Notes under the pieces: generated by a model | What the model was told of the DNA's origin: nothing | What the model saw: the letters and a program-made list of their open reading frames with translations, nothing else | The model's database searches: none | In this document: piece by piece, positions 1-64,000 of the stretch | How positions within the stretch are numbered: position 1 is the first letter of the stretch | How the letters are laid out: each line of letters starts with the position of its first letter | Made by a program: the position numbers and the translations under genes | Source of the DNA: Mytilus galloprovincialis | Taxonomy: Eukaryota; Mollusca; Bivalvia; Mytilida; Mytilidae | Direction of reading: 5' to 3' | Length of the DNA stretch: 64,000 bases | Assembly: GCF_965363235.1 (NCBI RefSeq) | Contig: NC_134844.1 | Coordinates: forward strand, 78,647,244-78,711,243

Positions 1-374
1 GTACACAATGTTTGAAATCTTTAATTTGTGCTTCTGGTGATCATTTTGCAAATTGCTATTGTTCAGAGCTTTGCAAAGTTTCATTATTTAACAAGAAGAA
101 GACAACTCCTTTATTCAGTCAGATTTCAATTTCAAACAAATTTGTCTGCCCATTATGCGTACCTTTTTTTTCAATAAAATAACACAGCTTTGTAGATATT
201 GGGCATTGTTTTGAAAAGTAATGATAAAAATCATTTTCAGATTTTATTATTCATATTAGAATAAATCTTTTAGACAAATATCTCTTTTAACTAATAAGTA
301 CCTTTGTTATAGTTATCACTTTATATTGTAAATTAAAAGTGATATTTCAAAGATCAGCACAGTATTAAAGTTAA
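1..374. other. No gene recognised; probable intron 3 of copy 1
   Basis: AT-rich DNA with no long open frame. Exon 4 of gene copy 1 begins at 1863 behind a splice acceptor and the expected exon 3 is not found between 1 and 1862. This stretch is therefore probably intronic, with exons 1-3 lying left of the window. Intron 3 in the other copies is 0.6-2.1 kb, so an intron of more than 1.8 kb is plausible. Confidence 0.4.
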
Positions 375-1056
375 CTTTAAAGGGGCACTAGCTGCCAAAT
401 TCATGTTCACTGATTTAACTCAAATTCTTATATTTTGTTTATAACAATGTAAAACATTTTTCTAAACTACCAAAAGTATAAATTAAATAATTTACAGCAC
501 ATGGTCTCAATAAGATGTAGCTTCGTTTCGTGTAAATTTTAACCAAGACGCTATCTAATTAACTATCGAGTTGACCGTATATGACAATATAAGCGATGTA
601 AACATAAACATAGATATACATAGATTAAGCAACTCGTGCAATTGGATTTTTATAGGTCTGTTAAATTTTGTAATATAGATTAAAAATGTATGTTTATGGT
701 AGTTTTTACTTTTAAAAGAATAATTTTGTGTGGATCGAATCAGTAAATCAAATTATTTACCTTTGTTTCACTTTCCACGGGACATTCCTTTTCTTTCGTT
801 CACGGACAATGTATGCGTTATTTTATCTCTTTCTACGCGTTTAAATAGGAGTTCACAAGAATTGAATGAGGTCAAATTATTCACTTGCAAGTGAATAATT
901 CATTATCAAAGTTTATTAGCTTAATTTAACAAAATTGAACCATTTTAGCTGATAAAAGCAAATTATTATTTCACTTTCTCACATTCATTAATGATTGAAT
1001 AATAAAAATCATATTTTTGATATTTTATATATCTTGTAGCTAGTGCCCCTTTAAAG
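375..1056. mobile_element. TIR element (MITE-like), about 680 bp, TTAA-type ends
   Basis: The left end, CTTTAAAGGGGCACTAGCTG at 375-394, is the reverse complement of 1037-1056 with at most one mismatch over about 20 bp. Both ends carry TTAA next to AGGGGCACTAGC, as expected of elements that duplicate TTAA targets. There is no coding capacity, so it would be non-autonomous. A perfect 26-bp palindrome sits inside at 875-900. Confidence 0.65.
875..900. repeat. Perfect 26-bp palindrome
   Basis: The sequence is self-complementary about the centre 887/888, with core TTCACTTGCAAGTGAA, and the symmetry breaks at 874/901. It lies inside the 375-1056 inverted-repeat element. Confidence 0.85.
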
Positions 1057-1470
1057 GTATTCAACATAATGTACTTCTTGTGACAAACCTGAAATGTTAA
1101 CGAAGTTAAGACTAATATTAACAGGTAACAAAAAAATAAATAATTTCTGAATAAGTAAATCGTGCATTCACTAGATTAAAAGTCAGTTGTAAAGAGGTTG
1201 CACCGTTAACTTATTAGTATCTATTTCACTGTTTTCTCTCAATAATATAATAACTATGATTACAATTTACTGACATAATGTGTTAGAAGAAAGTATTGAA
1301 AATAAGAGTATGACGTGAACTTAATATTTCTACAATTAAAGTAGTATTCAAAACATCTATTTCCTTAAATAAAGGTATTTGATTTGATCATATTATTGTT
1401 TTTTAAAGGGGGGATGCTGAAAATGTTGAATGGTATGATATCATCGTAAATATGCTTTCTCGTTTTGTTT

Positions 1471-1670: not shown

Positions 1671-1862
1671 TAAGCTATTAAGAAGAATAATATAATTGTA
1701 GCGAGACGATGCATCAGTTTTTATATATAGTTAATGGACAAAAAAGCGAAAAACACAAGCTTCTACGTTTGTAGTCTTTTTCAAATTCACCCCCAATATG
1801 ACATTATTCAACAAATGTTCAATAGTTTACGGATTGTTTACAAATATTGTTTAATGTTTCAG

Positions 1863-4800
1863 ATAATATAAATGATTTAATCAACACATGGAGGAAAGAT
1901 GACGAACCTTATTTTGTGACTAGAGCTACAAAACAGGTATATGACATTTTAGAATCTGAAAACATTGTCATGGTAATTGGTCATTCTGGATCAGGTAAAT
2001 CAGCAGTTGCTCGAAATGCGGCCTTAAAATATCATTCTTGCGGTTACGATGTTGTTCCAGTGGAATATGTTGATAAAATTTTAGATTATCGATGCAAATT
2101 AACAAAACAATTTTTTGTGATAGACGATGCAGTTGGAAAATACTCCATAGACGGGTCGTGTTTATATCAGTGGGAGAGACTGGATTCGAAACTAAAGGCA
2201 TTATTTATTGATCATAATGCGAAATTAATTTGTACATTGCGAAAAGTCTTGGCAACTGATTCAAAGTTCAGGGCAACAAAAACTCTATTGAGCGAAAAAG
2301 CTTATATTATTGATTTAGACCATGAAAACAATTATCTTTTAAGCGAGGAAAAAATGTCAGTTTTGATAAATCATTTAACTTGCACTGGCAGACAAGGGGA
2401 TCTTAGCGACGAAGAATGCAGAGAATGTTGTAAATCTAATTTTGCCTTCCCACTTTTATGCAATGTTTTTACAACAAGTGATGGATTGTTTCAACGCAAA
2501 TCAAGTTTCTTTCGAAAACCTTTTAGTTTTTTAAATGATGAGATTACAAAATTACATCAGCAAAATAAGGAAGCATATTGTTCATTAGTTATATGCATGA
2601 TTTATTATGGGAAGTTAAGTACAGATATATTTTCTGATTGTGATAGATCTAGAGATGAACAAGACAAAATCGATCGTATTTTAGGCATGATTTCCGAAGC
2701 GTGTGGTTTACATCGAAATATTTCAAGACAGATATTAATTGACAGTTTGATTTCTGTTGAAGGCGTTTATATCAAAATTTGTTCTGGAAATATTAATTTT
2801 TTACATGATTCTTTTCTAGAAGCTGTTAGTTTTCATTTCTCAAAGGTGAATATATGCATTCTTTTAGAATTCTGTAATATTGAATTTCTTAGAGAAAGAA
2901 TTAGGATTATTTCACCTAATGTTGATGATGACCAAAATGTTATAGTTTTAGAAGAGGAATCGTATTTCCATTTAGCCTGCCGATTCATTGCCGAACTCAA
3001 GAAGGGTTATTTTTCAGATATACTATGGAGCCAACCTATTAGACAAGACAGATTTATAAAAGTTATGAGTAATGTTATTGACTGTGGTCGCATAATAACG
3101 AAGCAAAAGCTCTTGAAACTTTCTTGTCACACTAATTGTGATGGGACTTTTTTTGCTCCTGTAAATAAACAAAGCGATGGTATAAAACAATTTGGAACAA
3201 CCATGGTACGTTTTCCTGCAGATAACACATTAATTCATTGGGTCATATGCGCAGGATGTCATAATTTCTTTGATTATTTATGGAAAATCATGTCACAAAA
3301 GACACGAAATAGATATGTTCGCGGAGATAAGTCTATTTTCCCACTATCATTATTGAGTGGTTGCAAAAAAATAATTAAACTAATGCTGGAATCGGGTGCT
3401 GATGTCAAATCTCCTGCAAGTCAGTATGCCTTACAAAATTTATTGAACAATGAACAAAATACTGAATTAATGGAGCTTTTGTGAAGAAATGGAATCGGAA
3501 TGAACTTTAAAGACTATAATGGGAAATCTCCGCTTTATTACGCAATAACAAATAAGAATTTGACAATTCAAGCGTTTTTAGTAGAAAAAGATTCACAGCA
3601 AAATCCTCTGCACGAAGCTGTTTATAATTCAAACATTCACAAAACAAAATATCATCTTTGTAGTCGTAACATACGTTTTGTTTCAAATAACGGTTGGTCA
3701 ATGTTTCATTTTGCTGTATACAATAATGACATACCAATGATGGAGCTTATATATAAAACTGCACTGAAAAGATGTAAAACTTTATATAGAAATATTTCAA
3801 AAACTGATATTGTGTTTGCCGTCGATAAAAGAGACAACATTGGATGGACTCCTCTTCATCTCGCTATTGTTTTGTGTAAATACGAAGCTGTTGATTTTCT
3901 TATAAACAAAATCACAACTTCTCATTCCGTTGACCTCGATGTAAAAACATCATTAAATATGTCTAGTAATGGACTGATAACTCGCTCTTTATTAGAAAAA
4001 AACAATCATGCAAAACAACATACACTTAAAGAATGCATCAATCCAGTTAATGACGAAAGGCGTACATTAGTGGTCGAAGATGTCGTGAAGGAAAATACGG
4101 AAAATATGAAAAACTGGGAGCCAACCTTATTTTCGTTGATCTATGTAACATTCATGAATATTCTTTTCTTCTGTTTTTCTATTGTAATGTTTCGAAAGAA
4201 AATTGATATTCCAGAATGGAAAGGTAACACACCTCTTCATGCTGCTGCAACTATGGTAAATGAAGATGATATCATAGTATGTGTAAAAATGCTTTTGAAA
4301 AGAGGTGCTAACCCCTTATTTTATAATATTAATGGTGACTTACCAGCTGATGTTTCATTCTACCGTAGTCCTTATAAAGTAAAATTTTTATTTGATACAT
4401 ATTCAAGAAATGCAGTTAAAAGAAGTATGTGGATTTTAGTTATAATTTCAATTTTGATATTCCTTCTTGCAGTATTTCTATGTCTTGCTCCTATCTACGT
4501 TTCTCCTGGCTATGTAAATGTAAATGTTGATGTTAATAACAATTCGTACGATGCTTCTACCTGTAACTTATATGATTATTCAAATGGAAGTTTACATGGT
4601 GATGTTAATCTTATTTCGTACAAGTTTGATAATTTAGCCCTCGAAAATAACTCTGCAGACAATCAGCATGCTAACTTTCTACTGTTATATGTAATTCATT
4701 TCATAACAATTTTATGTGTTTTGTGTCTTGATATAATTCTGGCAATCGGTAAAAAATTACTTTTGAGACAAACATATCATTTTGAAAACATTTACATTTA

Positions 4801-5536
4801 TGTACATTCGTTAACACTTATACGTGTAATGTTTATCTGTTTCCCTTTCCAGTCAATAGGAAAAGTGATTAAAGACCTTATTGTTTTTGTCTTTGTAATG
4901 TACCTATACGGGTTAGGGTTTGCTAAACTTGTAATGTTAACCAAAAGATACAACGCAGGATGGTATATTATGACGACTGTTTTCTACAAGATCATGTGCT
5001 ATATCATTTTTCCAGCTTTGAGTTTAATTTTTCTCTTTTTTTTCGTTGTGTTATTGTCTAAAATATCCTTTATGTTAGAAACTCTGTTCAATTTTTCAAT
5101 GATGTCACTTTTTTCAACATTCATCGTAACTTTTATTGGTATGTATATTTATATGAATGTCTTTTCTAGTTGTGCATATTTGATTTTTCTAAAAATAACG
5201 GACATGCAAGGTCTTTGTAGAACCCGTAATACTTTCCATATAATTACTAATATCTTCCCTTTTATGAAAAGTTGTATGGGGCATATAATTTTCAAATTTT
5301 GTCTTCTGTTTATTTTGCTCATAATTGAAACTATTGCTTTTTATGATACATACCAAGAAGGATTTTTCTTTTTGAATAAAACGAAACCCATTGACATTAT
5401 GGTCATATTTAGCATAATTGACCAATTTTCCTATTTAGATTTTTTAGTTAAAATATTGCATTTTATTTTAGCAGTAGGACTATTGAAAAAATTGCAAAAA
5501 TATATAATGTTCACAACAGACCTTCTTATCACTTAA
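1863..5536 (+). pseudogene. Copy 1 exon 4: nSTAND3-like NTPase, ankyrin repeats, multi-TM; one in-frame TGA
   Basis: The exon opens after the acceptor TTTCAG at 1857-1862 in the same phase as the other copies, so exons 1-3 must lie left of the window. The frame reads a P-loop GHSGSGKS (1979-2002), a Walker-B-like FFVIDD (about 2109-2126) and ICTLRK, matching a STAND NTPase. It is interrupted by TGA at 3482-3484. The same frame continues at once with ankyrin repeats (WTPLHLA, GNTPLHAAA), a hydrophobic segment near 4114-4194, and a membrane domain from about 4423. The Asn-rich loop after the first membrane helix has several N-x-S/T sequons and cysteines. At the stop, copy 3 reads TTG GTG AGA where this copy reads TTG TGA AGA, so the lesion is local and no reading frame is lost downstream. 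It could be a recent pseudogene, an allele, or an assembly error. Confidence 0.75.
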
Positions 5537-13277: not shown

Positions 13278-13551
13278 ATGGCCGTGTCTACACTCAAACT
13301 AACTGTTGAGGAAAAGAATTACTGGAAATTTTGCATGCTTAATGTCAGGGTTGTACCAGATGCACTTCGTATGTACTTTGACGGTCTAATACCACCTACT
13401 AGCCTGGCCACCACAATCAACCAAAACTCCACGACAATTGTTTATCTTGTTAACAGACGAGTTATCAATTCAGCCCAGCTTGATATATTGCAGAGAATAC
13501 CTGGCACACTATAGCCACTAAGATGTCCTATCGTAGCAACTGGATCTAATG
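13278..13551 (+). pseudogene. Copy 2 exon 1 (HEPN N-half) with nonsense codon
   Basis: It is 274 nt, exactly the length of the intact copies. It starts MAVSTLKLTVEEKNYWKFCM and reads cleanly to codon 78, then TAG at codon 79 replaces the conserved Trp. The donor is G|GTAAAT after 13551. Confidence 0.85.
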
Positions 13552-14210
13552 GTAAATACTAAAATTCGTACAACTGGTATATTCAAATCATTCAATCATA
13601 TAAATATTGATTTTGTGTTAGCCAAAACCTTATCACTATGCAAATGGCTATTTTGATTTTATTTATCTCCATTTGTGTCTGTTTATACCTAATGTGACCT
13701 CGTTTGGTTAATCCAAGTAAATTTAAACATGAATCACAATATGCATAAATAGTTTATTCTTATTTTTATAAATTTCAGATTGATCGAGTATTACATAAGT
13801 TGAATAGTTTAAACAAGGTCGATTAAATACGCCTATCACCTTTTAAAAATTAAAATGCCTCTGCATTAAAAAAATCCCTGGTACCTAATTTAATAGTTTA
13901 TTCAATGGTTGTCGTTAATTGCTGTCTGAAATATGTTCGTAGGCTTATTGTTTAGACCCATTATACTTCTTGTTTGATAAAGTCAAAAGGAATGTTACTA
14001 TACATTTGTATAACGGATATGACTAGTTGTACTGCTAGTTTAATTTTTGCAACGGATATCCAGTGTTATGGCAGGAGCTCATCGGCTCACATTATTCCTC
14101 AGATTTACTCAACAAATTAAAACAATGGTTATATAGAGTGTTTATACACCACCAATCAATTAAACTAAACAAAGAACCACTTATATTACACAGGGCGTCT
14201 TATTTTCTAG

Positions 14211-14441
14211 CTTCTTCTTCGGCAGATTTTGACGTAACCTTGATGGTGTGTTTACTGCGAAATATATCATTACCAGGGATATATCAACCTGCATCCGGGT
14301 TTGAATAATTTACCTATCAATGAGACAACGCCAGGTGCCTACCTTTCAAGAATAAAGTACTATCGAAATGAGATAGCACATTCAACTGAAAACAAATTGA
14401 ACACCTTGGACTTCCAGGATAAGTGGAAAACAATCAGCGAG
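14211..14441 (+). pseudogene. Copy 2 exon 2 (HEPN C-half), frameshifted
   Basis: It is 231 nt rather than 233. It opens in frame (SADFDVTLMVCLLRN) and then hits TAA after a 1-nt gain near 14306. The RNEIAHS coding DNA survives near 14362-14382, but not in the opening frame. Confidence 0.82.
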
Positions 14442-14609
14442 GTTTGTATATACTTCTTTTAGTTGTTACGAATGGAATGATATTTCAAAAGCGTATATCA
14501 TTTTGGACTTTGGACATATGCGATAAGATCGGATAACTCGTTTGCGCTGAAATACTTTCTTAATATTTTTGCTTAGTGCTATAAGATAGAATTTTGCTAT
14601 CTATTTCAG

Positions 14610-14847
14610 GCAATAACATTCTGTAATGGTGGGCATTGTCCGAATGCAATTATGGAAATTTTGCATTGCGACTTGGGTGGTTCGCGGAATGGTGTAAATG
14701 TTACTTGCTTAATGACAGAGATCGAAGCTGTTAAACGAGACTTCATACTGGTTGAAGGGGATCTCCAAAGAACTGAACTTCAACTAGAGAATGTTCAAAG
14801 TGACTTTCACTTTTATAAGGATGGTCACTTGCCAAAAAATATTTCAG
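14610..14847 (+). pseudogene. Copy 2 exon 3 (coiled coil), 7 codons shorter
   Basis: It is 238 nt versus 259 in other copies. An in-frame 21-nt loss removes one heptad-length of the coiled coil (between LVEG and DLQRTELQLE). The donor at 14847/14848 is repeated 51 bp downstream by a tandem duplication. Confidence 0.8.
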
Positions 14848-14927
14848 GTATTATTTTAAACATATTGTGCATCTGACACTTGCCAAAAAACATTTCAGGT
14901 ATTATTTTAAACATTTTGTGCATCTGA
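14826..14927. repeat. 51-bp tandem duplication across the exon 3 donor of copy 2
   Basis: Units 14826-14876 and 14877-14927 differ at about two or three positions. Each contains the last codons of exon 3 (CCAAAAAAYATTTCAG) and the GT donor, so two equivalent 5' splice sites exist 51 nt apart. Confidence 0.88.
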
Positions 14928-15269
14928 ACTGTATGATTTAATTATTATGCAAGACTATTTAATATTGAATTCTAAAATTAAAAAAAACATGTAATCGAGG
15001 TACCTTACGTTCGTTTAACAACAAAAATACAGAGCGACACATTAATTGAATGGAAACTAAGAAATTATCAAGACAATCAAAAAAGACAAGTCGTCGAAAA
15101 TTAAACAAAAGACATCAGACAGGTAGTAAATCGCAAATTTAGTAAATCACAACATTGATAACTCAATATTTAGCAATATGAAATAAACTATGTATGAACT
15201 TATGTGTTCCAAAAATACGTTACTATTTTCTTGCGTAAAAAATTATAATCCTGGTACCTTTGATAACTA

Positions 15270-15375
15270 TATACACCACTGGGTCGATACCACTGCTGGT
15301 GGACGTTTCGTCCCCGAGGGTATACGTATCACCAGCCCAGTAGTCTGCACTTCGGTGTTGACATGAATTTCAATT
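15270..15375 (+). repeat. Dispersed repeat F4 (single copy of part of the 351-bp satellite)
   Basis: CACTGGGTCGATACCACTGC, GTCCCCGAGGGTAT, CACCAGCCCAGTAGTC and CACTTCGGTGTTGACATGAA match, in order, the F4 half of the satellite at 8992-11186. It lies in intron 3 of copy 2. Confidence 0.7.
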
Positions 15376-15550
15376 ATATGGTTATTTTAATAAATTTCCT
15401 ATTAAAAAACTCTGATTTTTTCGAAAAACTAAGGATTTGCTTATCCCAGGCATCTATTAACTTAAGTAACCATATTTGGTAAACCTTTTTGGGATTTTGT
15501 GTCCTCGATGCTCATAATTATGGCTAGTAATTATAATTCAATATTTTTAG

Positions 15551-18500
15551 ATAACATTCATGAGTTAATCAACAAATGGAGAATAGACGACAAACCATTT
15601 TTCTTCACTAGAGCAGGAAAACTGGTATACGATATGTTAGAATCTGACAATATTGTCGTCTTATTGGGCAATCAGGCTCTGGGAAATCTGCAACTGCTCG
15701 AAATGTAGCCTTAAGATGGATTACATACGGTTACGATGTTGTTCCAGTGGAATCAGCTGGACAAATATTGGAATATAGATGTAAAGAAACAAAACAAATC
15801 TTTGTGATAGACGATGCAGTTGGAAAATATTCAGTAAATGGATCGTATGTTAATCAATGGGAAAGACTAGATTCGAAACTAACGACCATATTTATTGATA
15901 ATAATGCGAAACTAATTTGCACATTACGAAAAGTTGTGGCTATTGATACAAAATTCAAGACAGCCAAAACGTGTTTGAGTCACAAAGCTTCTATCATAGA
16001 TGTAGACCATGAAGACAACTGTCTTCTTCTCGAGGAGAAAATGTCAATTTTGAAAAATCATTTGAATTGCACTGGTAGAAAAAATGATCTTAGCGACGAG
16101 GTGTGCAAAGAATGCTGTAAAGCGAACTTTGCCTTCCCACTCTTATGTCATATTTTTATAACAAGTGATGGACTGTTTAAACGAAAATCCAGTTTCTTTA
16201 GAAAGCCTCTAAGTTATGTAAATGATGAAATTGCAAAATTACATAAACGAAACAAAAAAGTATATTGTTCATTAGTTATGTGCATGATTTATTCGGGGAA
16301 GTTAAGTACAGATATCTTTTCTGTTTCTGAAGACTCAAGAGAGAAACACGACAAGAGCGGACGAATTCTAGGCATGATTGCCGAAGCATGTGGCCTACAT
16401 CGAAATATTTCAAGACAAACATTACTTGACAGTCTGCATTCTGTTGAAGGTGTTTATGTAAACATGTCTTTTAAAAAAATCAAGTTTTTACATGATTTTT
16501 TTCTAGAAGCAATAAGTTTTCATTTCTCAAAAGTAAATACAAGTGTACTTTTAGAATGTTGTGATAATAACTTTCTTGTGGAACGAGTAAGGGTTATTTC
16601 GCCAAATGTTAACGAAGACCAAAATGTTATAGTTTTAGAAAAGGAATTCTACTTTTATTTAGCCAGCCGATTTATTGCCGAACTCAAGAAAGGATTTTCT
16701 TTACATATTCTATGGAGTCAACCAATCAGACATGCCAAATTTTTAAAAGTTATGATTAAATTAATCGAAAGTGGTCATATAATAACAAAACAGAAGCTCA
16801 TGAATTCGGAATTCTCTTGTGAAAACGCTTCAGATTTGAGATTTTATACTCCTGTAATAAGACATGGAGTTGAAACGACCTTAGTAGTGTTTCCTTCTGA
16901 AACAAACATTTCTTCACTTGATCGTATGCACAGGGTGCCATAAATTCTTTCACTATTTTTGGAAAACTATGTCGAAAAAGCAACAAAGAAGATTGTTCGC
17001 GCAGATAATTCTCTCTTCCCTCTGTTTTTTATTAAGCGGATGCAAAGAAATAATTAAACAAATGTTTGAATCAGGTGCTGATGTGAAGTCTCCAGGGAGT
17101 CAATATGCCTTAAAGTATTTAATAAAAAATGAAAGAAATACTGAATTAATTGAGTTTTTGATAGGAAATGAAGTAGGAATGAATTTTATAGACTATTAAA
17201 AGGAAATCGCCGCTTTTTTACGCAATAATATATAAGAATATGAAAATTCTTGCATTTTTTGTTGAAAAAGATTCAAAGCAAAATCCACTACATGAAGCTG
17301 TATATAACTCAAACATTCATAAAACAAAACATTTGCTACGGAGTGAAAGCATAAAACTGGTTTCAAACAACGAATGGTCGGTATTCCATTTTGCTGCACA
17401 CAATAATGACGTCGCAATAATGGATATTATAATTGAAAATGCAATAAAATGCTGTCAAAACCTACATCAAAGTATTGTGAAAACTCTTAAGTTTACCGAT
17501 ATAATATATGCCATTAATACTAGAGATAAACTTGGCTGGACTCCTCCTCATCTAGCATCTGCTTTGTGTAAATATGAAGTTGTGGATTTTCTAATGAGAA
17601 AAGGTGCAGATGCTCATTTAGTTGACCTTGATGGAAAAACACCTTTTCATTTTGCCAGCAATAAACGGATTGCTAGCTTTCTATTCAAACAGAGCCATTG
17701 TACAAAAGACCTGTTCAGTAAAGAATCCATCAAGACATTTAAAAATGAAAGGCATTCACATGAAGACGATGATTTCGTGACAGAAGTTCATGATAATATG
17801 AAGAACTGGCAACTCTCTGTCATTTCGTTAATCTATGTTACATGTATGAATTTTCTTTTCTTATTATTTTCAATTGTAAAGTTGTGAAAAAAAATTGATA
17901 TACCTGATAGTAAAGGTAACACACTTCTTCATGCTGCTGCAAAGATTAAAAGTGAAGATGACAGCATAGAATATGTACAAATGCTTTTAGGAAGAGGTGC
18001 TAACCCCTTATTTTATAACACGAGCGGTTACCTGCCAAATGATGTTGCCTTCAATCGAAGCTCGTACAAAGTAAAACGCTTCCTCGATATGTATACAATG
18101 CATGCAGCAAAAAGGAGTATGTGGGTTCTAGTTATAATGTCAATCATAACATTCCTTCTAGTCATATTTCTTTGTCTAGTTCCTTTTTACGTTTTTTCAA
18201 GCTATGAAAATAATGATGTTTTTAACAATTCATATTACATGGATACTGCCACTGCCTGTATCTTATTCAATTATCCAAATAGAACTTCACAAAGTGATTT
18301 CAATTTTATCCAGTACAATATTTTAGCCGTTAACCAAACCAATGCAGACAATAAACAAGGTTCCTTTCCACTTTTATATATATTTCACCTATTGTCAATT
18401 TTATGTGTTTTAAGTTTTGATATACTTCTTGCAAAACTGTAAAAAAAACTACTATGGAGACACTATTGCTTTTTCGAAAATATGTATATCGGTGTACATA

Positions 18501-19215
18501 CGACGACGCTTTTGCATGTAATGTTCATCTGTTTTCCTTCCCAGTCAATACTGATAGTGTTGAAATACATGATCGTTATATTTTTGTTAATGTACCTAAC
18601 CGTGTTAGGATATGAAAAAGTAACAGTCTAGGATTGTTAATATTCTCTACTGGTTACTTCAAGTTTTTACATATTTTCTATACTATTATTCCAGTTTTAA
18701 GTATATATGTTTGCTTTTTATACGTTATGTTTTTGTCAAAAATATCCGTTATGCTATTCAATTTCTCAGTGATGTCACTATTGTTACCATTCATCTTTAC
18801 TTTTATTGGTATTTATATTTATATGAATATCTTTTCTGGATGCGCATATTTCATTTTTCTGAAAATATTGGAAAAATATATTACTTTTCCTCACCTTTCA
18901 GATCGTTTTCAAATTAAAACCTCTAAACTGCTTTATTCTTTACGTATCCTAATAAAAGCAACACCCTTAATTTCATGGCATATAACATTCAAATTTGTTT
19001 TTCTCTTTATTTTGCTATTTACCGAATCCCTAATTTTTTACAATGCATATCAAGATAGATTTTACTTCAGGAACTTGTTAAATAAATCGAATCCCGTTAA
19101 TCTAACAGTTGAATATTCCTACACTGACTTATATAACATTCTAAATATATTTTTTGATATTTTTCTTTTCACTATATCTATACAAACTTTTAAGTATTTG
19201 CAAAGATTGAATTAG
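15551..19215 (+). pseudogene. Copy 2 exon 4 (NTPase-ankyrin-TM), at least six lesions
   Basis: The acceptor TTTTTAG ends at 15550. Conserved blocks appear in order across three frames: NIHELINKWRIDD, QIFVIDDAVGKYS, ICTLRK, ISRQTLLDSL, SQYALK, WTPPHLAS and RSMWVLVIMSII. The membrane domain then runs to a stop at 19213-19215. The P-loop deletion alone would abolish NTPase function. Confidence 0.85.
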
Positions 19216-39791: not shown

Positions 39792-40065
39792 ATGGCAGTG
39801 TCTACACTGAAACTAACTGTAGAGGAGAAGAATTACTGGAAATTTTGCATGCTTAATGTCAGGGTGGTACCAGATGCCCTTAGGAAGTACTTTGACAGTC
39901 TTATACAACCTTCAAACTTGGCCACCGTAATCAATCAAAACTCTACGACCATTTCCTATCTTTTTAGCAAGAGAGTTATAAATGCAGTACAATTTGGCAT
40001 ATTGAAAAGAGTTCCTGGCACGATATGGCCACCAACAGGCCTCCCAGTAGCAACTTCATCCATAG
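39792..40065 (+). CDS. Copy 4 exon 1: HEPN N-half
   Basis: It is 274 nt, starts MAVSTLKLTVEEKNYWKFCM and ends CATCCATAG|GTAATT in phase 1. It differs from copies 3 and 5 after GTIWPP (TGLPVATSS). Confidence 0.9.
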
Positions 40066-43000
40066 GTAATTAGATATCAAAATGTGCGTAACTTATCTAA
40101 AACATTGTTTTCCGAGTGTAGACTTTTTTTTCAAAAAAATTGATGAATATTGATATAAATTGTTACCTAATATATTGATTTGACCAACTTATTGTAAATT
40201 GATGTCTTGATTTATGACATAAATATTCAGAATTCTCTGTTCATTAATTAAGAAGTTATTAAGAAACGACGGTTCTAACTTTCTTCAGCAAAAGAGCTTC
40301 GGCTGCATCAAATATAGACGATATCATATTCATTATGAAAAATAGAGCACTCATTCTACAAATTAATAATAATAACTTTTTTTAATATTTCAGTTTAGTT
40401 GTTTTAGATTTGTATATACTAACGCCTTTGATTATACTTCATATATAAAACTCAATATCAAAACTAATATTTCTCTACCAAAAAAAAAGAATTAACCGAT
40501 ATTCTTGTACCAACACTTCTGTAAATCCAGACATGATTGTGATTTTTTTATTAATGCGAAAAAAGCGATTAGGTGGATATCGAAATAATAAGATTGCATT
40601 TTGATATCTCATACATTCCCTACATGTATTTTTCCCCTAAAATCGCGATAATAATTCTCGCATTTTGTTCTTTCTACTAAAAAAAGTAACATAACAATAA
40701 ATGCACCCTATAGTACCTGACTTTACAATAAATCAATATTAAATGATTTATACTTAAATGACAAATACGGTCGATCCTCGCTGAGTAGAACTCAGTTGTG
40801 TCGAAAACTTGGATGAGTCAAATTGATTTATTTGTCCTGGCAAAACAGTATACACTCACTTTTTTCTTTCACCTGAGACAAAAAACAAACAAAATGAATT
40901 TTAATGACTAAACCTAGATATCTATTAAATAAATGATTATAATTAAAACTTATTAAATGCAATAAATAAAAGTATGAACACATTAATGATAAATTCATGA
41001 TGATTTAATTATGTGAAGTACACGACCTCATGAAAGACCGTTCAGAACTTACCTCGTTCCGCGAGTGATTTCCTAATTTGGAGTGACTGACCTTTGTAAA
41101 TCTTTGTGTATGCTGTTAGTTTTATTTGTCCGTGATTTGTCTCTGTACTTGTGTGTTTAATCATAACGAAAGATAAAAAATGGAGATTGAATACACAATC
41201 AAAAAGTGTCATATAAAGGCACATCATTCATTGTAACTAGATCTCACATACCACAGACAGTATTTCTTGCATTTCAAACTAATGACGACACACTTGATTT
41301 CGAATGAGTCGAATGCTTTAGTCCGATCCCTTCGACTTCGGCACAACGGTGTTCAACTGTACGTCGTTATTCCATTTCAGCTACGACTTCTGCAGATTTT
41401 GATGTTAGCTTTTTGGTGTGCTTACTTAGGAATATTCCATTACCAGGAATAAATCCACCAGGAACAGGATGGGATAACTTACCTATTCCAAATGATTTAT
41501 CTCCAGGGGCATATTTAGCACGAATAAAGTACTATCGAAATGAGATAGCACATTCAACTCAGAACAACATGAATTCCTTAGATTTTCAGGACCGGTGGAA
41601 AACAGTAAGCGAGGTTTGTATACGCCAAACGCGTGTTTTGTTTTCATACATGTCAAAGGACTCATCTGTTGCGCTTGAGGAACAGTTGAAAGGTCAAATC
41701 AAATACAAAACGTTAACCATATATACGTCGATTAGTAAATTCGGGGAGAGGTAGAAAAAAACTTATTAATTTGAATAATGAAATATTCTATACACAATAA
41801 ATTAACAGAAAAAATACATGTTAAAATTAAGCTGGTATAAGATGAAATGGGTGTTTATCTATAAGCCCAATGTTATAGTACGCTTTATGTAAATTAATTC
41901 AGTATTTTGATTATCTTAATTTAAGGCCATAACCTTCTGTAATGGTGGACACACTCCGAATGGAATTAAAGAAATTTTGCAGTGCGATTTGGATGGTTCA
42001 CATAATGTAGCTCTTGTTGCTTCCTTGTCAATAGAGATCGAAATGATTAAACGAGATTTTGCATCGTTAGAAGGTGAAAAAACAAAAATGGAAAATGACC
42101 TCAAAAGAATCAAATTTCAACTAGAAATTGTCAAAAGTGATTTTAACTTTTATAAGGATGGTAACTTGCCAAAAAACATTTCAGGTAAATCTTTTTAATG
42201 TTGAACTTTATAATACAGTAGCAATAGCACATTTCTAAACTTAAATCGGAGAAAAATTGGTTTACGAAATATAAGTATAACGTACGATAAACACACAAAA
42301 CGAAGAAAAACACGGTTTTTGTAAGTCATTATGAAAACAAGATAACCAAAGGGTGAATAAAACATAAATCACAGAACAGATCAGGACAGTCAACATCTTT
42401 CGAAAAGAATAGATACAGTAAGCCGTATCATGAATGACCTTGAAGGAAAAGACAAATAACAATACTAAAAAACACAATATAGAACATAGATAACTTAAGA
42501 TTGTTAATATGGACCAAACCAAACCTCAAGGTACTCTAGACGAGTAAGCAGATCCTGCTACACATGTAAAATCCTCCGTGCTACTTCTATAAAATACGTT
42601 ATCAAGTGAATAGGATTGGATCAATAATAGATTGGTAATTGACTTTTAATCTTAGTCTTTGACATTACCAATTCATAAACCATTTGTCATGTTAAGATTA
42701 TAATACTGAAACTTAACTGAATGTGAAATTTAGAAACATTTTTTCTAGACGAAAGATAGACAAGACTTACGCTGGTTAAGATGGTATGGAAGTCTTAGAT
42801 AGATAAAAATGGTAGAATTTTTTGCCAAAACGTAGTATCTATTGATATATGTTCAAAAATATAATTAAAAAAAATAGGTCACCGCGCATTTTATCAAGCT
42901 ACAGGTCGCGACAAAATGACACATTTTGTATGGATTATATAGGGGGCACCAACATTCTGTGACTTAGAAACTAAACTAAATGATTTAATTGTAAAATAAA

Positions 43001-46000
43001 TTACAAAAATATATCTTTTAGACAATGCTTTGAGAATAACAAAAGAAAAGATAGGGTCACCGTACATGTTTTCCGGCTGAAATACAAAATAGGAAAATTC
43101 CATTTAGATTCCTTCAGAAAATATACTGTTTCAGAGTTACCTCCCCTTAAAATGACAATTTAAAAACATTAAAAACCAACCAGACATAACCTTCACTTGT
43201 AAAAATATTAATATCTATATTCTTATATATAAATTGGTTCTGTTAAATGAAAATACATTTAGTTTTATGCATTCCTGTATCAAATTTTGCTAAATTGATT
43301 GCTAATCTGGACCTTATGTTCTCTGTATTTTACAAGTCAAGATGGCGAAAGACACTCATACCACCTTAACCATAAAATGCATACAAAAAAAAATGAATAA
43401 CAAGCATAGACTGTCTGTAAATTTTGATTTAAAAAGATATAAGTGAAATATTGGAAACCTGGAAAGATAATAAATATTTTGAAATCAAACATTATCTATA
43501 TTAACAAAACTTCAGCCAATTCTTAATACATGAAGGTTTGCCAATTTAATTGATGTGAAACAGAGTTAAACACTAAAACCTTATTGTTTTGTAACTGCAA
43601 AAAGTTATATCAGCAAAATAAGGTAAAGAAATTTATAGAAAAACAATGTTTTTATTATCATGACTAGGTTGCCTTGGAGATTTTCGATCATAAAAAAGCA
43701 TCTATCCAACTTAATTGAAATACCATGACAGTTTGACAACGTTATTGGTTATAAATTATTAATCCTTGTAGACGACGTCGACGCAAATGACATAGAAGCG
43801 AAAAAATACTTGTAATAAACCTCTTAGTGTTTAAGTTATTCATACATCCCAAGCTATTCATTGTTCATGGTTGAAAGTAAAATCACAAAAAGACTGAACT
43901 GATGCTGGGCAAGCATTTCGTCATCATAATCGAATAACTCGAATAAAACGCTTTGAATGCCAACACAATAAGTTAACCGGTTGCAAAGAACCTTATCATT
44001 ACGAATACATTTTTTTAAATGTCTAGCCTCATGATCATTCAAAAAAAGTTGTACATGTGTTCATAAAACCCATACTTCAGCATTATAATTTAATGTGTCT
44101 GTAACAACAACTAGTCAGGCTAATGCTAAATTCCTTTTAAAGTTTGGTAAAATGCTGTTGGTTTCTTACGAGGCATATATTTTGTAGATTATATCATATC
44201 TTTCTTTTTTTTTTTGGCATTTGATACATAATGTTTGATCTATGATGAATCACTTTAAAATACTATTTTAGATAACATTTATGACTTAATCAACAAATGG
44301 AGGATAGAGGACAAACCATTTTATGTCACTAAAGCTGGGAAACACGTATATGATAGGTTAGAATCTGAAAATGTTGTCATGATAATTGGGCATCCTGGCT
44401 CGGGAAAATCGGCAACTGCCCGTAATGTAGCCTTAAAATGGATGACATACGGTTACAATGTTGTGCCGGTGGAGTCTGTTGAAAAAATGCTGGAATATAG
44501 ATGTAAAGGAACAAACCAAATGTTTGTGATGGACGACGTACTTGGCAAATACTCAATTATTAGGTCGTATGTCAATCAGTGGGAGAGATTAGATTCTAAA
44601 CTCGCGGCTTTATTTATGAACAGTAATGCAAAACTAATTTGCACATTGCGGAAAGTTTTGGCTACCGATGAAACAATCAAAGCAATGAAAATGATTTTGA
44701 CCGACAAAGCTTCGATCATTGATTTAGACAAAACTGACAACTGTCTTCGATACCAGGATAAAATGTCAATTTTAAAAAATCATTTAGTTTGCACTGACAG
44801 ACAAAATGATATAAGCGAGGAGGAATGCACAGACTGTTGTAAAGGAAGTTTGGCTTTTCCATTGTTATGTCATCTTTTCACAACAAGTGATAGTCTGTTC
44901 AAGTATAAATCTGATTTCTTTAGAAATCCCTATAACTTTTTAAATGATGAAATTACAAAATTATATAAAAAAAACAAAAGAGTGTATTGTTCATTAGTAA
45001 TATGCATGATGTTTTCTGGTAAGTTAAAAGAAGATTTGTTTTCTATCTCTGATGACGAAGATGAGAACCAAGAGCAAAACGAACGCATTTTTCGTATGTT
45101 ATTTAAAGCATGTGGACTTAATCGAAATATTTCAAAACAAACATTGCTTAAAAGCCTGCTATCCGTTGAAGGTGTTTATATAGAGAGACACTCTGGCATA
45201 ATTAGTTTTGTACACGATACTTTTCTAGAAGCTATTAGTTTTCATTTCTCAATGGTGAATGTACGTGTATTCTTAGAGTGTTGTGATAGTGCCTTTCTTA
45301 TGAACAGAGTAAGAATTAATTCTCCACAAGTGAATGACGATCAAAATATAATTGTTTTACCAGAAAATTATTTCTGTTATTTAGCAATACGGTTCATTAG
45401 AGAATTGAAGAATGGTCATTTTATGGATGTGTTATGTAGCCAACCAATTCAAGAAGAGAATTTTGTTCAAGTAATGGGTAAATTAATCCACCATGGACAC
45501 TTAATAAATATAAAACAGCTAATGGATACGAAAATCAATTGCTTACGTTTTTGGAACCTGACGAGTTTTCATCCAGTTTTAAGAAAAGAGAACAGTTTTG
45601 AAGCAGTTTCAGCAATAATGGAAATTTTCACGGACAAAAATAAATTAATCCACTGGATCATAGCCACTGGTTGTCACAGTTTCTTTGACTTTTTCTTGGA
45701 TGGCCTGTCACAAAAGCAACATGAAAAATTTCTTCGTTCAGATAAATCCTATTTTGCATTAGCTTTATTAAGCGGTTGTGAAGAAATAATTATACCAATG
45801 ATTGAAAGAGGTGCAGATGTTAATTCTCAAGAAAGTCAATATGCTTTACAGAGACTAGTGATTAATGGCAAAACTACTGCATTACTGGAATGTTTAATGC
45901 ATCATAGAATTAAACTGAATAATATCGACTACAATGAAAAAACACCGCTTTTCTATGCAATAACGACCAAGAATTCGAAAATTCAGACATTTTTAGTTGA

Positions 46001-47963
46001 AAGAGATGCAATGCAAAACGAAATGCATGAAGCTGTTTATAATTCAAACATTGAAAAAACTAAAGATATTCTGAGTAGTTATAACATAAATTTGATTACA
46101 AATTACGGTTGGTGTGTGTTTCATTTTGCTGCGTATATAAATAGCACAGCAATGATGAATATTATTTTCGAAACAGCTATAAAATCTGATCAAAATCGTC
46201 ATACAGATCGGAAGTATAATGATATTTTACTTGCAATCAATAAACGGGATATAATTGGCTGGACTCCTTTACATTTAGCGTCTGTCTTGTCTAACTATGA
46301 AGCTGTCAATTTTCTCATGAGCAAAGGAGCAAATGCTAATTTAGTCGACCTTGATGGGAAAACACCTTTACATTTGTCTTGTAGTGAACGGGTAACTTGT
46401 TCTTTATTGAAAAACAAACATAATGCAATAGAACCGAATCCTAAGCAATACACGAAGACATCGACTTCAAATCGACATCATAATACAGATGATTTTACGA
46501 AAAATATCACTAAAAAACACTTTCCAGCAAAACGTATGGGGAATATTCCTATTGAAGTGATACACGCAAACTTATACTCACACGAAGTAATGGATGAAAA
46601 TAACATCTACTTCAAAGAAGGTAAAGATAACATTTGGACGCCGTATATAAATGGTTATCTAGTATACGAAGGTTTAACAATAGAAATTCCTCAAAATATG
46701 AACAAGTGGCATCCGCCTTTATTGTCGATGATCTATGTAACCTGCATGAATATTCTTTACTGGAGTTTTTCCATTGTTAAATTCCGAAAGGATATAGACA
46801 TACCCGATAAGGAAGGCAATACACCATTACATGCTGCTGCAATGATTGAAAACCAAGGTGATAGCATTGCATCTGTTAAACGACTTTTGGAAAAAGGAGC
46901 TAACCCGTTATTGTACAACAATAACGGCTGCCTGCCTTCTGATGTCGCGTTTTACAAAAGGACATACATAGTGAAGCATTTCCTCGATATTTATGCGATG
47001 CATTCAGAAAACAAGCGAATTGGAATTCTGGTTCTTATTTCAATCATTACGTTCGTTTTGGTCTTATCTCTTTGTTCGGTCGCTCACAGTATTTGTCCAG
47101 GCTACATCAATGGTTTTGGGAATGATAATTTAAATAGCGCTTCAATCTGTAACTTACAAAGTTTTTCAAATGACACTTTATATTGTGACATTGATATGAA
47201 CTTGCACAGAAAACTATCTGTGGAAAGGACTGAGTACCTTCCACTTTTTAGTTTCATTCATCCTGTGTGTATGTTTGGTGTACTGTATCTTAATTTAGTC
47301 TGGGCATTAGGTAAAAAACTATTATGGAGACAAAAATGTTTCCCGTCCGAAGGTGTATATTTTTTCTTTGTACATTTGACAGCTATTTTAAAACTTACAT
47401 GTATATGTTTCTCTAATCGCAAAAGAGGTATAACATTCCACTACATTAATTTTGATTTCTTCGAAGCAACCCTCGTGTTTTTTATAATCGATATATATGT
47501 TAGTTTTAAACAAAGATATCATCCAGAATGGTTGATGTTCCTTCCATTTCCTTTCCGGTTTATTTCATACTTTTGTGTCATATTTTTTACTGTTATTTTA
47601 CATGATCCCTTAAGCAAGCTAATATCAAAGATATATCTTATAAGCAGTATGTTAGACAGTCTTTCAAGTTTTTCAATGATGTCCTTGTTATTAAGTTTTA
47701 TTTTGACATTTGTTGCTTTTTATATATATATCAATGTTTTATCTTGCTGTGCATACCTTATTTTGTTAAAAATATGGGGGAAATTCAAATATTTCCGACA
47801 AATTTCTTATTGTTTGCAAATTGGCATATTTGAAAAACAAATTCAAAGCCATGCTAATTTCTTTCCTCTTATAGACAACCCTTCATTTAAATGGCAAATT
47901 TTCTTCCAATCTATGCATATTTTAATTTTGCTTATTTTTGAAACAATCGTGTTTTATAATTGA
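39792..47963 (+). CDS. Copy 4: intact HEPN / coiled coil / nSTAND3-like NTPase / ankyrin / multi-TM protein (1485 aa)
   Basis: Exons 39792-40065, 41381-41613, 41926-42184 and 44272-47963 join in frame to 1485 codons plus TGA. The HEPN motif is R144-N-E-I-A-H149 and the P-loop GHPGSGKS is at 295-302. FVMDDVLGKYS and ICTLRK follow. Ankyrin-like units include GWTPLHLAS, GKTPLHLSC and GNTPLHAAA. Compared with copy 3 it has an extra segment of roughly 45-50 residues between the ankyrin blocks (near the KRMGNIPIEVIHANLYSHEV stretch), and it stops about 40 residues earlier, right after the last strong membrane helix (IFETIVFYN). Exon 1 pairs it with pseudogene copy 2 (INQNSTTI, RVIN). Intron 3 is the longest of the set (2.1 kb) and holds a MITE-like element. 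A membrane sensor role is inferred as for copy 3. Confidence 0.9.
41381..41613 (+). CDS. Copy 4 exon 2: HEPN C-half with RNEIAHS
   Basis: The acceptor is TCCATTTCAG and the donor GAG|GTTTGT. It reads ADFDVSFLVCLLRNIPLPG, then YLARIKYYRNEIAHSTQNN. The catalytic R and H are kept. Confidence 0.9.
41615..41710 (+). repeat. Decayed F2 fragment in intron 2 of copy 4
   Basis: TACGCCAAACGCGTGTTTTG, AAAGGACTCATCTGTTGCGC, TTGAGGAACAGTTGAAAGGT and CAAATCAAATACAAA follow the F2 order with changes. Confidence 0.5.
41926..42184 (+). CDS. Copy 4 exon 3: coiled coil
   Basis: It is 259 nt. It reads AITFCNGGHTPNGIKEILQC, then SIEIEMIKRDFASLEGEKTK and MENDLKRIKFQLEIVKSDF, ending LPKNIS in phase 1. The acceptor TTAATTTAAG is pyrimidine-poor compared with other copies. 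Confidence 0.86.
42774..43371. mobile_element. TIR element (MITE-like), about 600 bp, in intron 3 of copy 4
   Basis: GGTTAAGATGGTATG at the left is complementary (one mismatch) to CATACCACCTTAACC at 43357-43371. TTAA lies next to the GATGGTATG end on both sides. The interior is non-coding. Confidence 0.55.
44272..47963 (+). CDS. Copy 4 exon 4: NTPase, ankyrin repeats, membrane domain
   Basis: The acceptor is CTATTTTAG at 44263-44271. The 35 codons before the ATG at 44379 (NIYDLINKWRIEDKPFYVTK...) are open and conserved. The exon reads through to TGA with no lesion. The membrane part begins with KRIGILVLISIITFVLVLSL, followed by a loop with NDTLYC and ending after about seven hydrophobic segments. 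Confidence 0.9.
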
Positions 47964-60728: not shown

Positions 60729-60755
60729 TGTATATTTATATTCATTTAGAAAGAC

Positions 60756-61029
60756 ATGACAGTGTCTTTACTAAGACTAACTGCTGAGGAGAAAAACTAC
60801 TGGAGATTTTCCATGCTTAATGTCAGGGTGGTACCTGATGCACTTCGAAACTACTTTGACAGTCTTATACCTCCTACAAGCTTAGCTACCACAATCAACA
60901 GATATACATCGAAAATCTCAAATCTTGTAAAAAAGAAAGTTATCAACGCTACACAACTGAATATATTACAGAGAATACCTGGAACAATATGGCCACCCAA
61001 AGTCACTCCAGTACCAATTGGACCCACTG
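60756..61029 (+). CDS. Copy 5 exon 1: HEPN N-half
   Basis: The acceptor TTCATTTAG ends 6 nt before ATG. It contains VVPDALRNYFDSLIPPTSLA and ends GTIWPPKVTPVPIGPTG in phase 1 at CACTG|GTATCT, the same donor context as copy 3. Confidence 0.9.
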
Positions 61030-64000
61030 GTATCTATATTATATATATTGGAGTTCGCTATACGAAATCTAGTATCTTTGATAGTTTATTGCAAAAAGAA
61101 AAACTATAAGGCTTAAAGACATATCCGCTTGCTACTTAAGGTCAAGTAAATTACATTACATAACATTAAATGGACAAGGGATACTTTCGCTCATTACACA
61201 TTAACTGAAAATTTAATAAAAAGAAGCATTTATCACTGTCTTGACAAAATTGTTGATTGAATTCTTTCAGGGTATGTGAACATTTTCATGTAAAGCATGA
61301 AAACTGCAAAAACATTCTAATATTTGTCCTACATTCATCACATCTTTAGTCACTAATGCATAAATATTTCGTTAAAAACTGACAAAATAACATTATAAAA
61401 ATGCATATCAATATAATTAATACACTCAATACCCAGACATTGAGTTGGCTTACAATTATAATTTAATCGTTATATAAAAATGTAGGCTCACATGTGGTTG
61501 TTTTAAGCTCTAAATATTATTAAAATATTGTCAAATAACGGTATTGAAAAAAGATTTATGAATCAACAATAAATTTAACGTTCTCCTTAAAAGTGTTGCT
61601 TTCTACAAAGCTGTTCGCCAGGGATGGAGAAGGTATGCAATTGTTTTCATACTTGTAATATTTAAAATTGTACAATTAGACACGTTTAACTTGAATGAAT
61701 AAAAATGGACATACGTTTCATAAAATTAATATCATTCGCTACTTGTCATTGTGACTTGTTAAAATGAGTAATACGACATATTGTTTTCCTTGTAGATACG
61801 TCCTCAGCAAATTTTGATGTGACTTTAATAGTGTGTTTGCTAAGAAATATACCATTACCAGGGATATATCCACCAGTAACAGGATGGGACAATCTACCTA
61901 ATCCAAATGACAAATCTCCGGGGGCTTATTTAGCACGAATAAAGTACTTTCGCAATGAGATAGCACATTCAATTGAAAACAACTTGAATAACATCGATTT
62001 TCAGGACAAATGGAAAGCATTAAGTGAGGTATGTACTTTATACAGATAGCTGTGTGATTATAAATGTGTTTGAAATCAAAGTATTGCATATCTTTATCGA
62101 TATTTTAAGTTTTAAAAAATTATAGGTTATAATGAACTTGATTTATTTATTTAATAGATTTTTTTGTTAATATTTCGAATTCTTTTCATCCCATTATACT
62201 TGACAATTGCAGGCAATAATATGCTTTAATGGTGGACACAGCCCTCGTGGTATTATAGACATTTTGCATTGCGACCTCGATGGCTCGTATAATGGTGATA
62301 TTGTGACATCCTTATCGACTGAGATCGATGAAATGAAAAGTGACCTCACATTGGTTGAAGATGAAAACAATCACATGAAAAAAGTACTCAGGAGAACTGA
62401 ATTACAACTAGAAAATGTTCGAAGTGACTTTTACTATTATAAAGATGGCTATCTACCAAAAAATATATCAGGTTGGTTGTAATAAGATAGTAAGATACAA
62501 CTGTAGACAAAATAGCTTTTTAAGAGGAACATGTTGTTGTGATCAATTTTTATCGTTTGAGCTTCAGTCCCTTTAATTATTGTTCAGATGAGTTATAATA
62601 CTATCCAGTTTGTACTTAAATTGGACTTTAAATCGTTTTCATTAGACACTGATGCGTATATTGTAGACAAAATGCACGTCCGGCGTTTAAAACAGTGGCA
62701 TTAAATTTGTAGCTTTGGAACTAATTAACGATAGATACACTTAAAAACATATGATACATTTGAAGAAAAAAAAACAAGTACAAAGTGAGTACAAATTTCA
62801 GGATCAGAAAACTTGCTGAATCTGTCAGTTGTTTGTCAAGTTGACACATTATTTATGATGTTATGAGTGTATGGTGCTTAAGATTTCCTGAAAGTAATAA
62901 TAACTAATTCAGAAACCGAATAAAGATTTTTTGAGTTCTAAACAGTTTCTCTAATTCCAGATCTTAAGATTTCTGCTGGTACACAAATTAACAGTGATAT
63001 ACTTATGCATATATAATACATTGATAAACAATAACAACAACAATTGAAAGTATTTTGCATGTTTCACCGAAATAAACTTCTACTGAAGATAAAGACAAAT
63101 ATTTGCAGGTTACATAAAACAATTAATTGGTTTTAAAAATATTGTCAATTTAAGGTATAATTTGCAAAAGTACTATTTTTGTCCATTGTTATCTTTCTAA
63201 AACAGGTTCTTCTAACAGGTTCCACATCTTAATATATATTGGGAGGGGTTGGAGGTCAGTAGAAATGCCAATAAAACAATCAAATATCGTTAAGGAAAAC
63301 AAGAACTTTTCGTTTTGAATTTTCTTTGGGGTTCGGTATGTTTATTATCTTATTTTTCAAAGGGTTTCAATGACTACAATATTATAGTGTTTAAAACACA
63401 CAAAGTTCTATTTGATGAACATTTCGACAGGAACTAAAATCCCTAACACGTCTAAAACAAAAACTAAATTAAATAGATACTAACAGGGTACAGATCCATC
63501 AAAGCAAACTTTTATTAGATTTCAATAACATTTCAGATAATATTAAAGATTTGATTAACAAATGGAGAAAAGATGACGAAACTTTTTTTGTGACTAGAGC
63601 TACAAAACAGGTATATGATCGGTTAAAATCTGAAAATATTGTCATGATAGTTGGTTATTCTGGTTCGGGAAAATCTGCAATGGCTCACAATGTAGCCTTA
63701 AAATGGCTTACATTCGGTTATGATGTTGTTCCAGTGGAATCTGTTGAACAAATATTGGAATATAGATGTAAAGAAACAAAGCAAATCTTTGTGATGGACG
63801 ATGCAGTAGGGAAATACTCAGTAAGCGATTCCTATGTCAATCAATGGGAAAGACTAGATTCGAAACTATCAGCTTTATTTACTGACAATAATGCAACACT
63901 AATTTGTACATTGCGAAATGTTTTGGCTATTGATAAAAAATTCAAGTCGGCGAAAACTATTTTGAGCGACAAAGCTTATGTCATGGATTTAGACCATGAA
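60756..64000 (+). CDS. Copy 5: HEPN / coiled coil / nSTAND3-like NTPase gene, 3' end beyond the window
   Basis: Exons 60756-61029, 61796-62028 and 62213-62471 are complete, and 63537 onwards is open to the window edge. Phases are 1-0-1 and lengths 274, 233 and 259. It encodes MTVSLLRLTAEEKNYWRFSM, then YLARIKYFRNEIAHS (HEPN motif kept), a coiled coil with ENNHMKKVLRRTELQLENV, and a P-loop GYSGSGKS with FVMDDAVGKYS. Within the P-loop helix it has MAHNVAL where others have TARNVAL. Exon 1 pairs with copy 3. In exon 4 the first part (DDETFFVTRATKQVYD) is copy-1/3-like, while from KWLTFGYDVVPVE through EQILEYRCKETKQIFV and SYVNQWERLDSKL it is copy-2-like. Ankyrin and membrane parts are expected to the right but are not seen. 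Confidence 0.87.
61796..62028 (+). CDS. Copy 5 exon 2: HEPN C-half with RNEIAHS
   Basis: The acceptor is TTCCTTGTAG and the donor GAG|GTATGT. It reads ANFDVTLIVCLLRNIPLPG, then GAYLARIKYFRNEIAHSIEN. All motif residues are present. Confidence 0.9.
62213..62471 (+). CDS. Copy 5 exon 3: coiled coil
   Basis: The acceptor is ACAATTGCAG. It reads AIICFNGGHSPRGIIDILHC, then STEIDEMKSDLTLVEDENNH, ending LPKNIS in phase 1 at ATATCAG|GTTGGT. Intron 2, at 184 bp, is among the shortest. Confidence 0.88.
62640..62700 (-). repeat. F2 fragment in intron 3 of copy 5
   Basis: GACACTGATGCGTATATTGT, AGACAAAATGCACGTCCGGC and GTTTAAAAC follow the minus-strand F2 core with substitutions. Confidence 0.4.
63537..64000 (+). 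CDS. Copy 5 exon 4, 5' part (NTPase)
   Basis: It begins behind ACATTTCAG and is open for all 154 codons to the window end. It covers NIKDLINKWRKDD, the P-loop GYSGSGKS (about 63653-63676), FVMDDAVGK and ICTLRNVLA, so Walker A and B and the ICTLR segment are all present. Confidence 0.88.

Follow-up and report, generated by a model that had tools for sequence, protein, structure and literature searches.

Organization of the Paralogous Genes in the Mytilus Locus

The 64-kb stretch of contig NC_134844.1 of Mytilus galloprovincialis analyzed here over its full length (hereafter, the window; G+C content 31.6%) harbors five paralogous genes, arranged head to tail on the + strand. The encoded proteins combine a DZIP3-like HEPN domain, a helical linker, an nSTAND3-type nucleoside triphosphatase (NTPase), ankyrin repeats, and a C-terminal tail of hydrophobic segments predicted to span the membrane. 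Judged by sequence comparison, the membrane tail is the new element, the remainder of the architecture being known for bivalves, and the function is predicted. Self-comparison of the window revealed exon-sized direct repeats at three to five places each, and tblastn with the exons of copy 3 as queries gave five locations for exon 4 and four for each of exons 1, 2, and 3. The features are as follows:

1863..5536, + strand: copy 1 exon 4 (nSTAND3, helical region, ankyrin repeats, predicted membrane domain), with an in-frame stop at 3482-3484
13278..19215, + strand: copy 2, degraded (exon 1 at 13278, exon 2 at 14211, exon 3 at 14610, exon 4 from 15551)
27959..28232, + strand: copy 3 exon 1 (HEPN region, N-terminal part)
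29070..29302, + strand: copy 3 exon 2 (HEPN core with RNEIAH, the Rx4H motif)
29659..29917, + strand: copy 3 exon 3 (helical linker, modelled as long helices in the homologue P0013)
30531..34195, + strand: copy 3 exon 4 (nSTAND3, helical/winged region, ankyrin repeats, predicted membrane domain, stop)
32786..34192, + strand: copy 3 segment h1, last ankyrin repeats, and predicted membrane domain (8 segments)
39792..40065, + strand: copy 4 exon 1
41381..41613, + strand: copy 4 exon 2 (HEPN, RNEIAH)
41926..42184, + strand: copy 4 exon 3 (helical linker)
44272..47963, + strand: copy 4 exon 4 (nSTAND3 through predicted membrane domain, stop)
46707..47960, + strand: copy 4 segment h1, last ankyrin repeats, and predicted membrane domain (7 segments)
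60756..61029, + strand: copy 5 exon 1
61796..62028, + strand: copy 5 exon 2 (HEPN, RNEIAH)
62213..62471, + strand: copy 5 exon 3
63537..64000, + strand: copy 5 exon 4, start of nSTAND3, continuing past the window end

The five tandem paralogues proposed in the initial annotation were thus recovered, with the correction that only copy 3 (1476 amino acids) and copy 4 (1485 amino acids) are demonstrably intact. Exons 1-3 of copy 1 were not matched anywhere in the window by tblastn with the copy-3 exons, and its exon 4 carries a single in-frame stop, at 3482; an open relative of this copy, the database protein P0001, aligned in two pieces with 91% and 88% identity. Copy 2 contains both stops and frameshifts in exon 4. 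It also shows a 51-bp tandem duplication at 14826-14927, by which the end of exon 3 and its splice donor were doubled. Copy 5 remains in open frame up to the window end, which cuts it.

In copies 3 and 4, the predicted exons are bounded by GT donors and AG acceptors with phases 1, 0, and 1, giving open spliced frames; the pyrimidine tract at the exon-3 acceptor of copy 4 is not clear. Ungapped repeats at 27950-28243 and 29059-29308 approximate the boundaries of exons 1 and 2 of copy 3. The three predicted joins are read through by P0002, P0013, and P0014 from three Mytilus species, which are annotated gene models and not junction reads, and the proposed structure of exons 1-3 followed by exon 4 agrees with them.

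Domain Composition of the Predicted Proteins

The N-terminal domain matched the Pfam family PF18738 (DZIP3/hRUL138-like HEPN) with 85.0, 93.9, and 95.6 bits in copies 3, 4, and 5 (E-values 5.8e-24, 1e-26, and 3.1e-27), against a gathering cut-off of 27. The ribonuclease (RNase) motif Rx4H was found as RNEIAH in copies 3, 4, and 5 as well as in exon 2 of copy 2, i.e., in all four window copies having exon 2, and was also present in nine of the ten relatives with HEPN and nSTAND3 among the matches listed. HEPN domains are frequently RNases in conflict systems, and the motif suggests that this domain may act as one.

The central domain was identified as nSTAND3 (PF20720) in copies 1, 3, 4, and 5, with 90.1-96.3 bits against a cut-off of 27.2 (E-values 1.5e-25, 3.8e-27, 1.9e-27, and 1.7e-26, respectively), and Walker A and Walker B motifs were observed in the same copies. 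In the structure model of a homologue, the switch fold was found to be near those of NLRC4, Apaf-1, NOD2, and NLRP3, with a nucleotide-binding domain and a helical and winged-helix module of the nucleotide-binding, leucine-rich repeat receptor (NLR) type. Hence, the profiles and the model support grouping the protein with the NLR-like STAND (signal transduction ATPases with numerous domains) switches. The proteins do not qualify as NLRs sensu stricto (NACHT plus leucine-rich repeats), as the NACHT profile stayed below its cut-off of 26.7 (15.1 bits in copy 4 and 14.9 in copy 5, copy 3 being unlisted) and no leucine-rich repeat family was listed in the Pfam scans of the copies. Ankyrin families were far over the cut-off, Ank_2 scoring 90.6 bits in copy 3 and 93.2 in copy 4 (cut-off 27.3). 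The initial assignments of the HEPN, NLR-like STAND, and ankyrin domains are all upheld by these results. A search with PADLOC matched the candidate bacterial defence model PDC-S73 to the NTPase part (E-values 4e-12 to 5e-11), its other rows being weak or ankyrin, while NCBIfam gave just ankyrin, P-loop, and other rows far under their cut-offs.

The C-Terminal Tail

The initial annotation had described seven to eight C-terminal hydrophobic segments and a membrane-tethered protein. Past the ankyrin repeats, copy 4 has seven segments and copy 3 has eight, in agreement with that description; inclusion of h1, a segment preceding approximately the last two ankyrin repeats, which are followed by the membrane domain, raises the counts to eight and nine. 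A peak of 1.51 at residues 572-590 in the helical region of copy 3 was not counted, and h1 of copy 4 scored just 1.5. The sixth tail segment is long enough to accommodate two helices. The profile peaks fall at common columns across six aligned tails. Copy 4 (end 47960-47963) and P0006 stop after the seventh segment; copies 1 and 3 (copy 3 end 34192-34195) and P0001 have about 60 residues more with an extra hydrophobic segment, so that their C-terminus would be on the opposite side.

In all six tails, lysine and arginine were more frequent in the loops assigned to the cytosol (9/85 to 12/72) than in the outer loops (3/96 to 8/91), and all 20 sequons in loops lay on the outer-assigned side; these statistics indicate consistency, not proof, because the sides were set on the same data. 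Thus, the hydrophobic segments of the earlier claim are confirmed, and tethering, along with the putative insertion and topology, is suggested by sequence patterns. The possibility of h1 as a true membrane span was also considered; it is not favoured, by argument and not by test, because the ankyrin repeats would then be outside and a sequon-bearing loop inside.

A channel identity was tried for the tail as well. Pfam scans of the six tails up to an E-value of 10 returned ankyrin families and one weak, chance-level row (FAM163), with no channel transmembrane domain. A PDB sequence profile of the tail without ankyrins gave one row (E-value 0.64), a succinate dehydrogenase subunit and not a channel; when the last ankyrins were included, matches were at ankyrin positions only (best 60 of 255 rows), and the coverage of the TRPA1 and NOMPC rows was limited to these positions. 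Structural comparison of the poor model of ankyrins plus tail returned ankyrin domains, at residues 18-166, and was uninformative on the tail. The tail is a conserved module without a match to a described family in Pfam or among PDB sequences.

Relatives in Databases and Comparison With Known Systems

Among relatives from named species, the closest are Mytilus proteins: LOC134684883 of M. trossulus shares 60% identity with copy 3, and others come from M. coruscus and M. galloprovincialis; P0006 is 96% identical to copy 4. The tail was complete in four of ten proteins listed (P0001, P0003, P0004, and P0006, aligned) and lies in one frame with the ankyrins in these four and in copies 3 and 4. 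When the tail served as a profile query, three proteins were listed: P0036 (partial tail), P0037 of M. coruscus (matching from h1 through the ankyrins to the end of membrane segment 1, after which the sequence differs), and P0038 of M. edulis (ankyrin part only). Among named species, M. coruscus alone thus showed any of the tail; as this search needs shared words and similar length and scored a candidate list of capped size, distant relatives may escape it.

The relatives search, using a profile of eight sequences, listed 31 proteins, six of them in the query. Both PF18738 and PF20720 were present in 10 of the 31, including the query member P0002, and six of these ten also contained ankyrin repeats (two from M. 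trossulus, one from Saccostrea cucullata, and three others); the Ostrea edulis protein has HEPN and nSTAND3, with no ankyrin listed. On this sequence evidence, databases already hold the bivalve architecture HEPN-nSTAND3-ankyrin, in proteins of a second mussel gene family and of an oyster, and the tail is the addition. The order of domains had been taken initially as undescribed, which holds for the membrane tail and not for the preceding domains. In the gene models P0005 (M. galloprovincialis) and P0038, the last part of a paralogue continues into the HEPN of its neighbour. Such fusions suggest that the genes there are also arranged head to tail, and they make the annotation of these arrays in Mytilus unreliable.

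Two of the relatives, M. trossulus LOC134692355 and S. cucullata LOC134272844, resemble the window genes in having HEPN_DZIP3, nSTAND3, and ankyrin in order, with Rx4H and Walker A, but they lack a C-terminal hydrophobic cluster and are 24-26% identical to P0002. In the pearl oyster Pinctada fucata, one study reports clustered HEPN and NACHT genes, more than 50 NACHT proteins with an N-terminal HEPN, and Rx4-6H in 194 of 202 (PMC9646362). These share with the window genes the N-terminal DZIP3-like HEPN, a central STAND NTPase, C-terminal repeats, and clustering; they differ in that the NTPase is called NACHT, the repeats are LRR, TPR, or WD40, and no membrane domain is described in that text (PMC9646362). 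The Crassostrea receptor-like TRADD-N proteins are likewise membrane-linked, with a variable part that can hold a STAND NTPase, HEPN, or ankyrins; compared by description only, they differ by a single membrane helix, an extracellular Cys-rich N-terminus, and a DED-TRADD-N core (PMC8195603). Bivalve proteins that link such parts to a membrane were thus known before, in Crassostrea as receptor forms that combine one membrane helix with a STAND or HEPN portion (PMC8195603).

Bacterial Avs5 has the order SIR2-nSTAND3-repeats, with a SIR2 effector, TPR/Sel1/PPR repeats, and no membrane domain in the description available; its nSTAND3 is predicted, and changes in Walker A and one change in Walker B abolish immunity, another Walker B change being harmless (PMC12931631). 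RNase L, IRE1, and C6orf70 likewise join a HEPN-superfamily domain to ankyrins (RNase L) or a membrane segment (IRE1 and C6orf70, the latter a predicted HEPN protein at the endoplasmic reticulum membrane), and the same source lists animal DZIP3-type HEPN domains fused to ankyrin, NACHT, DEATH, and LRR with an expansion in oyster (PMC3710099). These proteins differ in having no STAND module, KEN of RNase L and IRE1 comes after a kinase domain, and full-length homology is not claimed. Plant immune proteins of the ankyrin-membrane type include ACD6, in which a multi-helix membrane tail comes after the ankyrin repeats. Wheat LR14A, a membrane resistance protein that its authors compare with TRPA1, has the same layout; by description only, it differs in having six membrane helices, with no HEPN or NTPase in the text available (PMC7878491). 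Massive presence-absence variation, enriched for survival and immune domains, has been described in mussels, HEPN being absent from the main text as available (PMC7653742), and another article names HEPN in its reference list only (PMC7773633). A table on M. chilensis includes a gene named "HEPN domain" but gives no sequence by which to link it to the window genes. Among the matches listed, no description of HEPN-nSTAND3-ankyrin with a multi-helix membrane tail was found in the literature.

Selection Between Copies

Pairwise ratios of nonsynonymous to synonymous substitutions (dN/dS) between copies, estimated by the Nei-Gojobori method over whole domains, were 0.17-0.44 and below 0.5 in every domain. 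The HEPN values (0.17-0.28) were among the lowest, and HEPN plus linker gave 0.17-0.29 versus 0.30-0.44 for ankyrin plus tail. For the tail, the ratio was 0.30 between copies 3 and 4, the only intact pair for ankyrin plus tail, and 0.37-0.44 in pairs with copy 1, whose stop was set aside. This small gap between HEPN plus linker and ankyrin plus tail would be compatible with an effector that is conserved and a sensor that varies more. Synonymous divergence (dS) was 0.41-1.47, indicating old copies, partly near saturation. The cluster had been called fast-evolving, a claim that these ratios do not support, as none of them points to positive selection at the level of a whole domain. The initial observation of the array stands, together with its interpretation as to domains, gene structure, and NLR likeness; the fast evolution is unsupported, and the novelty of the first domains was overstated.

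Proposed Mechanism and Alternative Explanations

Taking together the gene structure, the domain identities, the catalytic and nucleotide-binding motifs, the NLR-like switch fold of the homologue model, and dN/dS below 1, all obtained computationally, we consider that there is about an even chance that these tandem genes encode NLR-like STAND proteins of mussels that are anchored in a membrane and bring their HEPN RNase domains together in pairs on assembly. The tail of seven to eight helices would hold the protein in the membrane, leaving the HEPN, the NTPase, and the ankyrins on the cytosolic side, and the ankyrin/helical region would sense a trigger and keep the nSTAND3 module closed. A putative trigger, acting either on that region or at the membrane, would lead to nSTAND3 opening and NTP exchange; the NTPases might then oligomerise in the plane of the membrane, whereupon the N-terminal HEPN domains would pair into active RNases and cut nearby RNA in the manner of RNase L and IRE1. 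HEPN RNases work as dimers and STAND proteins assemble once triggered. The presumed role would be in immunity. If true, a STAND switch fixed in the membrane at one end and carrying a HEPN effector at its opposite end would widen the range of NLR-like designs; to our knowledge, the best-known NLRs (NLRC4, NOD2, Apaf-1, and NLRP3) have no multi-helix membrane domain.

Several observations weigh against this proposal. The relative P0022 is without Rx4H, and P0002 (M. trossulus) terminates ahead of the membrane domain. None of the ten HEPN plus nSTAND3 relatives has a hydrophobic segment of at least 1.9, five of them (P0002, P0013, P0014, P0015, and P0024) being too short to judge the tail and the first three of these being close kin of the window genes; at a threshold of 1.7, P0018, P0020, and P0022 show one isolated segment each (residues 766, 509, and 14), none C-terminal. 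As the longer HEPN-nSTAND3 relatives lack a C-terminal hydrophobic cluster, proteins of this architecture do not in general have the tail. The loop sides were assigned from the same data quoted for them, and the model of ankyrins plus tail is poor (pLDDT, the predicted local distance difference test score, 45).

It is possible, although unlikely, that the HEPN is an RNA-binding or dimerisation module and not a working RNase, with signalling through STAND oligomerisation to other partners. P0022, of the same architecture, and a motif that is just "mostly conserved" in the DZIP3-type HEPN family (PMC3710099) would agree with this, but the near-constant Rx4H among relatives and window copies and the low dN/dS of the HEPN argue against it. 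A further alternative, quite unlikely in our judgment, takes the membrane domain as a channel or receptor that does the work itself and is regulated from the cytosol by ankyrin-STAND-HEPN, comparable to LR14A. The order of ankyrins then multi-helix tail, the tail dN/dS below 0.5, and the likening of LR14A to TRPA1 are in its favour, whereas the tail searches in Pfam and PDB gave no channel, the model is too poor to use, and the TRPA1 and NOMPC rows were confined to ankyrin positions. Related to this is the doubtful and rather speculative idea that, in a mussel lineage, an NLR-type RNase switch became fused to a new membrane domain acting as a channel or receptor, so that one protein couples RNA cleavage to an event at the membrane (ion flux, lipid, or ligand); if true, the RNase L/IRE1 and NLR designs would be united in a single molecule.

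It is very unlikely that the natural product is a soluble HEPN-nSTAND3-ankyrin protein with the tail untranslated or spliced out, as in P0002 and the longer relatives outside the clade, which lack a tail; the tail is kept in frame with the ankyrins in six sequences and its dN/dS is 0.30 between copies 3 and 4. That the array is decaying without present function, as the broken copy 2 and the stop in copy 1 could imply, is hardly credible given that the reading frame is uninterrupted for about 1480 codons in copies 3 and 4 and up to the window end in copy 5, with pairwise dN/dS of 0.17-0.41. The membrane-anchored HEPN-STAND switch is the preferred reading.

Other Features of the Window

An Rfam scan of the window gave no match, and none was obtained when 3000 bases from exon 4 of copy 3 were searched against phage DNA. 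Satellite-like tandem arrays were observed between copies 1 and 2 at 6614-7700, 8334-8829, and 8992-11186, the last consisting of a 351-bp unit in 6.3 copies with 97% match. Between copies 2 and 3, long inverted repeats are present at 22455-24175 and 25858-27454, with arms of 110-263 nt that are 87-99% complementary; these are perhaps foldback or non-autonomous transposons.

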